Part shown: in pieces, positions 2,154 to 8,406 of the stretch
Position numbering within the stretch: position 1 is the first letter of the stretch
Layout of the letters: each line of letters begins with the position of its first letter
Origin: Belliella pelovolcani
GTDB lineage: Bacteria > Bacteroidota > Bacteroidia > Cytophagales > Cyclobacteriaceae
Direction of reading: 5' to 3'
Length of the DNA stretch: 64,000 bases
Assembly: GCF_900156785.1 (NCBI RefSeq)
Contig: NZ_FTOP01000002.1
Location: 62,001-126,000 of the forward strand
Made by a program: the position numbers and the translations under genes
The notes under the pieces: model-generated
What the model was told of the DNA's origin: nothing
What the model saw: the letters and a program-made list of their open reading frames with translations, nothing else
The model's database searches: none

Positions 2154-2183
2154 AAAAAAGCCGCGAAACAAAGTTTCACAGCT
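2154..2183 (-). terminator. Rho-independent terminator of the tRNA-like array
   Basis: An 11-bp stem with a 3-nt loop, followed on the minus strand by a T-rich tract. Read as minus-strand RNA, two positions form G-U pairs and the stem is unbroken. Read as plus-strand RNA, the same positions are C-A mismatches. This fixes the direction: the structure terminates minus-strand transcription coming out of the array at 2217-2873, not mtgA. Confidence 0.8.
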
Positions 2184-2216
2184 TTAGTCAATTAACAATA
2201 AACCCAAAATAACCAG

Positions 2217-2341
2217 CTGTAGGAGAAGGATTCGAACCTCCACGGGGCAGTTGGGCAAAAACACGAGCTCGATATTTGCTTTATCCTGTGATCCCCACCC
2301 CCGAGACAGGAGGGCTTGTCTGCCAATTTCAACATCCTACA
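2217..2341 (-). ncRNA. tRNA-like RNA, copy 1
   Basis: Read on the minus strand, the ends form a perfect 7-bp acceptor stem (TGTAGGA with TCCTACA). A T-arm carries the canonical loop GGTTCGAATCC, and the D-arm resembles tRNA-Leu (TTG, loop AAATTGGCAGA, CAA). No CCA is encoded. At about 125 nt it is far longer than a class II tRNA, because the variable region holds an extended stem-loop of about 55 nt around CGAGCTCG. An anticodon-like arm can be drawn (CCCTC/GGGGG), but its loop CTGTCTC would read GUC with a pyrimidine at position 37, unlike a working tRNA. A structured RNA is well supported; its role is unknown. Confidence 0.6.
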
Positions 2342-2389
2342 GTATCATATCATCAATTTATAAATTCTGATCTTTTATCAGAATCTCAG

Positions 2390-2521
2390 CTGTAGGAGAA
2401 GGATTCGAACCTCCACGGGTCAGTTGGGCAAAAACACGAGCTCGATATTTGCTTTATCCTGTGATCCCCACCCCCGAGACAGTCCCGATAGCTATCGGGA
2501 TGCCAATTTCAACATCCTACA
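2390..2521 (-). ncRNA. tRNA-like RNA, copy 2 (palindromic hairpin variant)
   Basis: It has the same acceptor, T-arm and variable domain as copy 1, but the segment that would supply the D-stem 3' half and the anticodon-stem 5' half is replaced by the perfect palindrome TCCCGATAGCTATCGGGA (2483-2500). No anticodon arm can form in the normal place, so this copy cannot be a standard tRNA. In the variable-domain stem one base differs (ACCC in place of CCCC). Confidence 0.55.
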
Positions 2522-2569
2522 GTATCATATCATCAATTTATAAATTCTGATCTTTTATCAGAATCTCAG

Positions 2570-2701
2570 CTGTAGGAGAAGGATTCGAACCTCCACGGGG
2601 CAGTTGGGCAAAAACACGAGCTCGACATTTGCATTATCCTGTGATCCCCACCCCCGAGACAGTCCCGATAGCTATCGGGATGCCAATTTCAACATCCTAC
2701 A
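2570..2701 (-). ncRNA. tRNA-like RNA, copy 3 (palindromic hairpin variant)
   Basis: Close to copy 2, with the same palindrome at 2663-2680. Small changes in the variable arm (GCAAATG in place of GCAAATA, and ATAATGC in place of ATAAAGC) leave the arm able to fold. Acceptor stem and T-loop are unchanged. Confidence 0.55.
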
Positions 2702-2749
2702 GTATCATATCATCAATTTATAAATTCTGATCTTTTATCAGAATCTCAG

Positions 2750-2873
2750 CTGTAGGAGAAGGATTCGAACCTCCACGAAGCAGTTAGGCGAAACACGAGC
2801 TCGATGTTTGCTTTATGCTGTGATCTTCACCCCCGAGACAGGAGGGCTTGTCTGCCAGTTTCAACATCCTACA
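2750..2873 (-). ncRNA. tRNA-like RNA, copy 4 (diverged, first in transcript)
   Basis: The most diverged copy, carrying the same hairpin type as copy 1. The variable-domain base stem has changed on both sides: GGGG/CCCC in copies 1 and 3 is GAAG/CTTC here (plus-strand positions 2777-2780 and 2825-2828). This double compensatory change is direct evidence that the stem is under selection. The inner stem has also drifted, but still pairs as GCAAACA against TGTTTCGC with one bulged C. Confidence 0.6.
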
Positions 2874-2923
2874 ATTTGTCTTTATTTCAAACTCCTTTGA
2901 CCTTTTGTCTTTGTTTGATATTT

Positions 2924-2931
2924 CAAAGGTA
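2924..2931 (-). promoter_or_regulatory. Candidate -7 box for the tRNA-like array
   Basis: The minus strand reads TACCTTTG, a match to the Bacteroidota -7 consensus TAnnTTTG, about 50 bp upstream of the first tRNA-like copy. No convincing TTG element was found at the -33 spacing, so the call is weak. Confidence 0.35.
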
Positions 2932-6704: not shown

Positions 6705-7450
6705 TGGGACTACTAGATTTCTTCAAAAGAGAGCAAAAAAAAACGCTTCCACTAGATTTAAGCTGGATGGAAACAGACATGCATTCTCACTTGATACCAG
6801 GAATAGATGATGGTGCGAAGACTTTGGATCAGTCAATTGCACTCATCAAAAGACTCCAAGGATACGGATTGAAGAAAATCATCACGACACCACATATCAT
6901 GGTGGAGTTTTATAAGAACACTCCCGAAATCATCCTCTCTGGACTAGAAAAGCTCCAAAAAGGGCTTGTCAGCAATGGCATGGATATCTCTGTCAAAGCT
7001 GCCGCTGAATACAACATTGATGAAGCATTCTTAGAAATGGTGAGAAATGGCGAGGAGTTATTGACAATCAATGATAATCTCATCTTGGTAGAAACCAGTT
7101 TTATCAATAAACCATCCATTTTATTAGACACTTTATTTGAGTTGGAGCTCAGAGGATTCCAGCCTATCCTAGCCCATCCTGAGCGTTATTTTTATTTGAT
7201 GGCTGACAAAAGCCTTCAAGAAGACCTGCTCGATAGAAATATCTACTTCCAAGCCAATCTGCTTTCATTTACTGGTTTTTATTCGAAGGATGTACAGCGA
7301 TTTGCAGAACTATTAGTGGACGAAAAAAGAATCAAGCTAGTAGGAACTGACTGCCATAATATGCGTTATTTGGATAACATGGAGTTGCTCAGCTCAAGTA
7401 AGTATTACGAAAAGCTTCAAGGCTTGAATTTGCTCAACCATACATTATGA
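6704..7450 (+). CDS. CpsB/YwqE-type tyrosine-protein phosphatase (PHP fold)
   Basis: A 248-residue PHP-superfamily metal-dependent phosphatase. The metal-binding signature METDMHSHLIPGIDDGAKT is at residues 21-39, followed by ITTPHIM, an AAEYNIDE block, PILAHPERY and the C-terminal GTDCHNM motif. Together these supply the His and Asp ligands of CpsB, CapC and YwqE. Such enzymes dephosphorylate bacterial tyrosine kinases that control capsule chain length. Its gene overlaps both neighbours (TAATG before, ATGA after). The Wzz-like protein in this window has no kinase domain, so the substrate kinase must lie elsewhere. Confidence 0.88.
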   Translation: MGLLDFFKREQKKTLPLDLSWMETDMHSHLIPGIDDGAKTLDQSIALIKRLQGYGLKKIITTPHIMVEFYKNTPEIILSGLEKLQKGLVSNGMDISVKAAAEYNIDEAFLEMVRNGEELLTINDNLILVETSFINKPSILLDTLFELELRGFQPILAHPERYFYLMADKSLQEDLLDRNIYFQANLLSFTGFYSKDVQRFAELLVDEKRIKLVGTDCHNMRYLDNMELLSSSKYYEKLQGLNLLNHTL

Positions 7451-8406
7451 AAATATTAATCACCGGTGCCACTGGTTTGGTAGGAAGATATTTAGCTCGG
7501 AGTTTTTCTGAATTAGGAGAAATTTATGGACTTAAGCGATCAGATAGCCAAATAGAAGACCTTGATATACCAACAATTCAATGGCGAACAGGTGACATTA
7601 CCGATTATCAATCCTTGGAAGTTGCATTTGAAGGCATGGATGTGATCATACATGCTGCGGCATTGGTCTCATACGAGTCTAAGGATGCAGATCGATTGAT
7701 GAAAATCAATGTGGAGGGTACTACAAATGTGGTCAATGTCATGCTAGATCAAGGTATCAAAAAGTTAATTCATATCAGTTCAGTAGCTGCTTTGGGTAGA
7801 TCGCCAGAACTCACTGAAATTGACGAAACACACAAATGGATCGCCTCTCCACTTAACACGCCTTATGCCATTTCCAAATATCATGCAGACTTAGAAGTAT
7901 GGAGAGGAGCCCAAGAAGGACTCTCAGTGATGGTACTTTATCCCTCAGTGGTACTTGGGAAAATAGCAGACAATCGTAGCAGTACACAGATGTACAATTA
8001 TGTATTGGAGGAAAACAAATATTATCCAAAAGGTACAGTAAACTACATTGACGTCAGAGATTTAAGTGCGGCAACGGTTAAACTTTACCAAGCCGGTCGC
8101 TGGGGTGAGCATTTTATTCTAAGTGCGGGGGCTATTTCTTATAAAGCTTTCTTTGAAGAGTTGGCAAAAGCTTTTGATAAAAAAGCACCGTACAAACCTG
8201 TCACCGCCATTTCCCTCAAATTACTTCTATTCTTTACCAAAATTGCAAAGGCATTTAGTATCAATAAACTACCGCTAAGCCCTCAAACTGCCATGCTTGC
8301 CCAGCGTAAGTTTATACTTTCCAATAAAAAACTCATTTCGGCTATAGATTACGAGTTTCACACCCTACAAAACACCCTCAAATGGGCCAGAAGGAACGAT
8401 TCCTAA
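7447..8406 (+). CDS. NAD-dependent epimerase/dehydratase (extended SDR)
   Basis: A 319-residue extended short-chain dehydrogenase. The N-terminal nucleotide-binding motif is GATGLVGRYLA, and the catalytic pair is in YAISKYHAD (YxxxK) with a serine upstream in HISSVAALG. It resembles dihydroflavonol-4-reductase/nucleoside-diphosphate-sugar epimerases, but the substrate cannot be read from sequence. The start overlaps the phosphatase stop (ATGA), giving a three-gene operon rfbC-phosphatase-epimerase. Confidence 0.85.
   Translation: MKILITGATGLVGRYLARSFSELGEIYGLKRSDSQIEDLDIPTIQWRTGDITDYQSLEVAFEGMDVIIHAAALVSYESKDADRLMKINVEGTTNVVNVMLDQGIKKLIHISSVAALGRSPELTEIDETHKWIASPLNTPYAISKYHADLEVWRGAQEGLSVMVLYPSVVLGKIADNRSSTQMYNYVLEENKYYPKGTVNYIDVRDLSAATVKLYQAGRWGEHFILSAGAISYKAFFEELAKAFDKKAPYKPVTAISLKLLLFFTKIAKAFSINKLPLSPQTAMLAQRKFILSNKKLISAIDYEFHTLQNTLKWARRNDS

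Follow-up and report, generated by a model that had tools for sequence, protein, structure and literature searches.

The window analysed here, a stretch of 64,000 nt from the 4.1-Mb genome of Belliella pelovolcani, carries four tandem tRNA-like units, all on the minus strand and placed between a promoter-like box and a terminator, and raises the question of what kind of RNA they specify. ARAGORN called no tRNA in the window, and no Rfam 15 family, RF00005 and tmRNA included, was matched at gathering score anywhere along it; the weak Rfam matches of the window RNA all fell far below the gathering scores. A preliminary description of the locus had proposed a selected, structured RNA family distinct from ordinary tRNAs, possibly a tRNA mimic. 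This view is borne out by phylum-wide homologues, covariation, promoter-like boxes and terminators, and the label of tRNA mimic fits the family. The RNA family is large, is found across many Bacteroidota and some giant phages, and matches no Rfam family. A literature search, which had most subscription papers outside its reach and so provides a weak negative, returned no description of it.

The Array in Belliella pelovolcani

In order of transcription, the array consists of unit 4 (positions 2750..2873, 124 nt), unit 3 (2570..2701, 132 nt), unit 2 (2390..2521, 132 nt) and unit 1 (2217..2341, 125 nt), lengths that agree with the range of 124–132 nt first reported. Reading all four units also confirmed the 7-bp acceptor stem (TGTAGGA/TCCTACA in each), the Leu-like D arm and the canonical T arm. 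Units 4 and 1 are intact and score 141.8 and 141.3 bits, respectively, with the covariance model R2 (see below). Units 2 and 3, which share 98% identity, have an anticodon arm damaged by an 18-nt perfect palindrome, TCCCGATAGCTATCGGGA, that replaces the 5' anticodon strand in unit 3 (2663..2680) and the 5' half of the anticodon arm in unit 2 (2483..2500). The arm had been described as absent from these two copies, which is slightly too strong: the 5' half is indeed replaced, but the loop and the 3' half remain. The palindrome or a one-base variant of it also lies within RNA copies of other genomes (L116, L008, L179 and L225), at different positions of the hairpins, and thus behaves as an insertion. 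Units 2 and 3 look damaged by it, and units 1 and 4 look like the working copies. Loss of the anticodon arm as a feature of the family is not supported, since in copies 2 and 3 it results from the palindrome insertion, while the anticodon loop is among the most conserved parts of the RNA. In its insertion at varying hairpin positions of the RNA, TCCCGATAGCTATCGGGA resembles a miniature mobile element.

The promoter-like box TACCTTTG (consensus TAnnTTTG) is situated at 2924..2931 on the minus strand, 51 nt upstream of the first-transcribed unit, and no clear -33 element was seen upstream of the array. We take TAnnTTTG to be the -7 element of Bacteroidota. At the other end, a 3' trailer that is a variant of TTTTTGGGTTWATGTTGTTTA (2187..2212, minus strand) is followed by an intrinsic terminator (2157..2185, minus strand) with a 13-pair stem, a loop of 3 and a T-rich tail, so that the minus-strand terminator reported earlier is indeed present, reading from 2185 to 2157. 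Related trailers follow the arrays of a number of relatives.

Conserved Structure and Covariation

Folding of single sequences gave z scores of -0.36 to -1.57 for the six units folded, i.e., no unusual stability, and single-sequence folding by itself would have missed this RNA. The structure becomes apparent on comparison. Across 75 distinct sequences, 97.4% of pair cells are standard and both partners vary in 20 of the 33 pairs, with a covariation score of 0.318 against 0.145 when shuffled and 0.06–0.08 when slid; across 127 distinct sequences, 95.3% of cells are paired, 22 pairs change on both sides and the score is 0.390, the alignments in both cases having been fitted to a covariance model, which favours structure. 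Given this covariation among relatives and matches in all eight genus genomes searched, the array is not a product of chance.

The helices comprise the acceptor, D, anticodon and T stems and two conserved stems in the variable domain. The body is that of a canonical tRNA, with a 7-bp acceptor stem, a 5-bp T stem, a D arm and the tertiary bases of the elbow: A14, A15 and U48 are present in 173 of 173 representatives and the D-loop GG in 172. Complete members in the aligned sets range from 108 to 210 nt. In unit 4, the base stem of the variable domain had been noted to carry GAAG/CTTC in place of GGGG/CCCC; this change is confirmed, and 20 of the 173 representatives have GAAG/CTTC as well. Beyond the stems lies a conserved internal loop, AYAAA/CUAA, with one base and then A[UC]AAA on its 5' side in at least 82 of 93 representatives and CUAA on its 3' side in 88, and this leads to an apical hairpin that is free in both sequence and length. 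A kissing loop formed through the palindromic loop UCGAGCUCG was considered and dropped as a family trait, the apical hairpin ranging from UUCG to about 70 nt. An apical motif, GG(G)TWGACCAC, is shared by 66 of the 262 distinct members, and both phage and chromosomal copies have it.

Distribution in Bacteroidota

A DNA search gave matches in 8 of 8 genomes of the genus and in 248 of 295 of the family, three of which (G044, G057 and G060) were not confirmed as members by the covariance model, reaching tRNA-like scores at most (G057 has a copy cut by a contig end). The preliminary description had pointed to a covariance-model search as the way forward, and by this means homologues were found to recur across the phylum with strong covariation, separated from the background of ordinary tRNAs. 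With a first model, R1, built from 16 sequences, members (70 bits or more) were found in 50 of 64 genomes searched, against a background of 49–58 bits at 82–86 nt; those background matches that were checked in viral loci are tRNA-Leu genes. With model R2, about 212 of 291 sampled genomes of the order carry members, counting those with a best E of 3e-16 or lower; the other 48 of the 260 matches are weaker and mostly tRNA-like background, but six of the weaker ones come from genus g96 at E 2e-13 to 6e-13, and two of these (G306 and G496) were shown to be a compact form of the RNA (see below). The same model found members in 50 of 295 sampled genomes of the class (listed match of at least 70 bits), 40 of them outside the order, and in the phylum sample 32 of 296 genomes pass an E of 2e-12, of which two, with three copies each, lie outside the class. 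A pattern search with a GTCTCG-containing pattern returned at least 119 stretches, and the 80 titles used among the matches listed were all Bacteroidota, either by name or by genera that we take to belong there, among them Algoriphagus, Cyclobacterium, Echinicola, Fulvivirga, Marivirga, Chitinophaga, Niabella, Terrimonas, Portibacter and Phaeodactylibacter. Such patterns, used for these title-listed stretches and for the viral scan below, bias counts of loop bases, and the 93 representatives found by model search only are free of them. Some genomes have lost the RNA or retain it in decayed form only, so it is not essential everywhere. A plasmid search gave no match for the RNA, and a plasmid origin was dropped.

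The 189 clusters in the loci examined, which like the loci behind the counts of expression signals and Lrp neighbours are not all independent (e.g., L135 and L228 are one genome), comprise 131 with a single copy and 58 with several, up to 11, at a median spacer of 50 nt. Signals like those of the window recur around them. Among 168 distinct regions upstream of first copies, 98 have TAnnTTTG at -60..-1, against a mean of 7.0 in shuffles, and our own scan detected a terminator-like site no more than 160 nt downstream for 107 of 164 clusters, against 0–2 in five shuffles. The strict TTTTTGGGTTWATGTTGTTTA pattern is present in 14 of 164 downstream regions and in none for each of 50 shuffles, and there are hints that this trailer has a role of its own.

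Copies in Large Phages

A pattern scan of IMG/VR found 26 viral contigs with the RNA, all scoring 70.7–114 bits with the covariance model, although several carry identical or near-identical copies and there are fewer than 26 independent finds. ARAGORN, applied to 20 of the 26 loci, found between one and 14 tRNA or tmRNA genes in 15 and none in the other five within the stretch scanned; in L325, for example, the RNA lies between tRNA-Ser(gct) and tRNA-Gly(tcc). An unannotated 636-kb uncultured phage, LR756504.1, holds a copy that scores 96 bits and is flanked by tRNA genes on either side; the anticodon stem of this copy, UCUCC/GGAGA, is quite different while enclosing the same loop, CUGUCUC. 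When a phage collection was searched, a chromosomal copy found no match, and of two phage-type copies used as queries, one found none and the other a single match.

Some features of the phage loci deserve separate mention. In L334, a 275-aa ORF (7086–7913, minus strand) matches only the core of class II D/K/N synthetases (PF00152). It and a nucleotidyltransferase ORF follow one another in line, immediately upstream of the phage RNA (6435–6582, minus strand); further ORFs in the vicinity are one resembling glutamine synthetase and two of the Mom family. The synthetase-core ORF was rejected as a linked phage gene, as it adjoins the RNA in one of the 26 viral contigs only and has no homologue in the other viral loci examined. 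The tRNA clusters of phages also contain a second class of oversize Leu-like RNAs, with near-constant ends, AGTCAGG...CCTGACTA, and a middle of roughly 60–100 nt that differs between copies (L340:5065–5185, L340:5270–5412, L341:7479–7599, L325:7683–7830, L327:9980–10112 and L328:10651–10808). A phage tRNA-Leu(UAA)-like gene in L333 (12502–12613, minus strand) has, by eye, an insertion of about 27 nt in its anticodon loop.

Association with an Lrp/AsnC Regulator

A gene for an Lrp/AsnC regulator of about 155 aa is divergent to the array in 54 of 100 loci and missing from the other 46. The proteins have a median pairwise identity of 56% (53 proteins; Pfam assignment on three), and the gap between array and gene is 121–252 nt in the 52 loci measured. 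A SufB homologue follows the Lrp gene in up to 22 loci; the Pfam assignments of SufB, C, D and S come from L122 only. In a comparison of 76 genomes hand-picked by RNA status, an Lrp orthologue (E of 1e-50 or lower) was present in all 36 that carry the RNA and in 11 of the 40 that do not. Among these 11, G015 and G048 keep decayed RNA copies beside the gene, G057 has an RNA copy cut at a contig end, in G075 the sequence ends 85 nt upstream of the gene, and G036 and G319 have no RNA copy beside it, only the trailer. The TTTTTGGGTTWATGTTGTTTA trailer together with a terminator-like hairpin was likewise seen to persist beside Lrp in L349, L350 and L356, where the RNA is lost or decayed.

In Belliella itself the Lrp orthologue is on another contig than the array. 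This separation, and the absence of the gene from many loci, imply that the RNA either acts in trans or has been relocated repeatedly, and the link to Lrp may represent ancestral gene order only. A k-mer search of the 52 array–Lrp intergenic regions for a shared Lrp operator found only promoter-like words and AGTTCTT, which is present in 17 of the 52 (1.7 expected) and lies, by eye, just upstream of the RNA; it resembles the rrn boxA.

A Compact Form in One Genus

Of 61 genomes of genus g96, 11 yield a 76-nt form of the RNA and no other, 44 have the long form and six neither, with none listed as having both (E of 1e-12 or lower). The compact form keeps the acceptor end, the D and T arms, and the loop CUAUCUC with loop bases 35–38, and has the variable domain replaced by about 7 nt. 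ARAGORN calls it tRNA-Asp(atc) in 11 of 11 cases, while the long forms L410–L412 gave no call. None of 11 short-form loci has Lrp beside it within the stretch fetched, as against three of three long-form loci. Since the conserved core is made up of both ends of the tRNA L, the comparison of the two forms suggests a protein partner that would read both ends, such as a synthetase. The compact form is also a natural minimal version of the RNA, suited to direct charging tests.

Acceptor End, Anticodon Loop and Candidate Partner

Both ends of the L are strongly conserved. U1-A72, G2-C71 and G73 are present in all 93 representatives of the model-only set, G1-C72 in none, and base 10 is A in 62, T in 25 and G in six. 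G73 is likewise invariant in the wider set of 173 representatives. In each of 164 clusters, the G73 of the last unit is followed by C, and base 74 is also C in 30 of 30 ordinary tRNA genes examined in the host genome (39 found). The encoded C74 points to normal tRNA processing at least as much as to the decoy for processing enzymes that had been raised as a possibility, and 3' maturation would probably be tRNA-like.

The 92 seven-base loops of the model-only set all have U35, C36 and C38. G34 occurs in 86 of them and U33 in 67, and position 37 is occupied by a pyrimidine in 88 and by a purine in four. A decoding-competent loop needs U33 and a purine at 37. With a pyrimidine at 37 and a variable base 33, decoding by this RNA in the normal way is unlikely.

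The likeness to class II tRNA-Leu lies in the body: a D-loop of the AAATTGGCAGA type, A14, the A15-U48 pair and GG of the hinge and, by eye against tRNA-Leu(taa), the geometry at the base of the variable arm (T44, stem, GT, T-stem). The RNA differs in having G73 rather than A73, a pyrimidine at 37, an anticodon loop of consensus C/U-N-G-U-C-U-C, and a far larger variable domain with the AYAAA/CUAA internal loop. In the part of PMC9976931 consulted, A73 is described as crucial for leucine identity in E. coli, and the G73 of the RNA argues against leucylation. The same source gives G73, G34, U35, C36 and C38 as strong determinants of aspartate identity (PMC9976931). All five occur together in 166 of 173 representatives, and G2-C71, also shared with tRNA-Asp, in 173, in a set partly chosen by a GTCTC-containing pattern. 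The RNA departs from tRNA-Asp in its U1-A72, rare G10, Leu-type body, U37 and long variable domain, and also in base 34 of genus g96, where all 41 copies read (30 of the long form and 11 of the short) have C or A, which should weaken recognition by AspRS. Because most members have the Asp determinant set on a Leu-type body, AspRS would be the likeliest partner. A special AspRS or AsnRS was looked for and none was found: asnS and aspS each score above the cut-off in 59 of 60 genomes, whether or not the RNA is present, and there is thus no special synthetase whose occurrence follows that of the RNA.

Possible Functions

Our preferred reading, held tentatively and with less than even confidence, is that the array specifies a dedicated, non-decoding tRNA-like RNA that is processed as a tRNA, bound or charged by a synthetase (most likely AspRS), and active outside elongation. 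Such an RNA would descend from a class II, Leu-type tRNA and would be matured by RNase P, RNase Z and the CCA enzyme; a synthetase reading both ends of the L, most likely AspRS, would then bind or charge it, and the charged or bound RNA might serve as an amino-acid donor or as a sensor of the state of the synthetase or amino acid. The arrangement of the RNA gene divergent to an Lrp/AsnC feast/famine regulator looks ancestral, and the regulator may control the RNA. Phages have a copy of their own, often set among their tRNA genes.

A regulator of tRNA shape that donates no amino acid, matured like a tRNA and then acting as a decoy or sensor of AspRS or another tRNA enzyme, or in the manner of tRNAOther, is possible, if on the whole doubtful. 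It would suit a loop that probably does not decode and an Lrp/AsnC gene next to the RNA in about half of the loci, and it has a precedent in the tRNAOther of B. cereus, which is described in the available part of PMC3399842 as poorly aminoacylated and off polysomes. Strict retention of G73, C74 and U1-A72/G2-C71 is, however, not something that a pure decoy would require. As tRNA-like RNAs that work outside translation and are tied to regulation, tRNAOther and other pseudo-tRNAs are alike in kind to the present family, and tRNAOther is the closest precedent seen; judged by its description, it differs in having a Trp anticodon, in being part of a longer transcript and in being known, in that account, only from Bacilli (PMC3399842). 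The loop also bears on whether the RNA could be an unusual decoding or suppressor tRNA for GAN codons, with which N34-U35-C36 would pair, and ARAGORN does call the compact form tRNA-Asp(atc); this is very unlikely given the pyrimidine at 37 in 88 of 92 loops, U33 in only 67 and the presence of ordinary tRNA-Asp and tRNA-Glu genes. Allo-tRNAs, whose branches are of the 8/4 or 9/3 type, also come from unusual tRNA-like genes of bacteria, and some of them have odd anticodons. The present family is likewise unusual and bacterial, but keeps the 7/5 division of acceptor and T-stem.

Serine is quite unlikely as the amino acid accepted. A Leu-type class II body with G73 could be a substrate of SerRS, which ignores the anticodon, and G73 is invariant here; a change from A73 to G73 can turn Leu tRNAs towards Ser, as stated in the consulted part of PMC9976931. 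The hinge, however, is of Leu type (A15-U48 and GG in the D-loop), SerRS would leave the conserved U35, C36 and C38 of the loop unexplained, and the compact form is without the variable arm that Ser identity uses. That the units are functionless debris, tRNA-Leu genes expanded by repeats or insertions, would account for the decay of copies 2 and 3 and of some relics and for the insertion-like behaviour of the palindrome, yet this is extremely improbable, being already contradicted by phylum-wide conservation with covariation, and carriage by phages and the promoter-like and terminator signals also speak against it. Beyond the preferred reading of a non-decoding, synthetase-bound or charged RNA, it could be speculated that the family is a third kind of tRNA-shaped RNA beside tRNA and tmRNA throughout the phylum, an acceptor of an acidic amino acid (Asp or other) that becomes charged yet is kept out of decoding, that supplies a non-ribosomal pathway or a starvation sensor governed by Lrp/AsnC, and that giant phages also carry; we regard this wider proposal as rather unlikely.

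A large share of the Bacteroidota, and large phages too, thus harbour a conserved RNA that Rfam passes over, as does ARAGORN when the RNA is in its long form. Few amino-acid acceptors are known whose sole task lies outside translation; this RNA, if charged, would join them and would be, to our knowledge, the most widespread of the sort.
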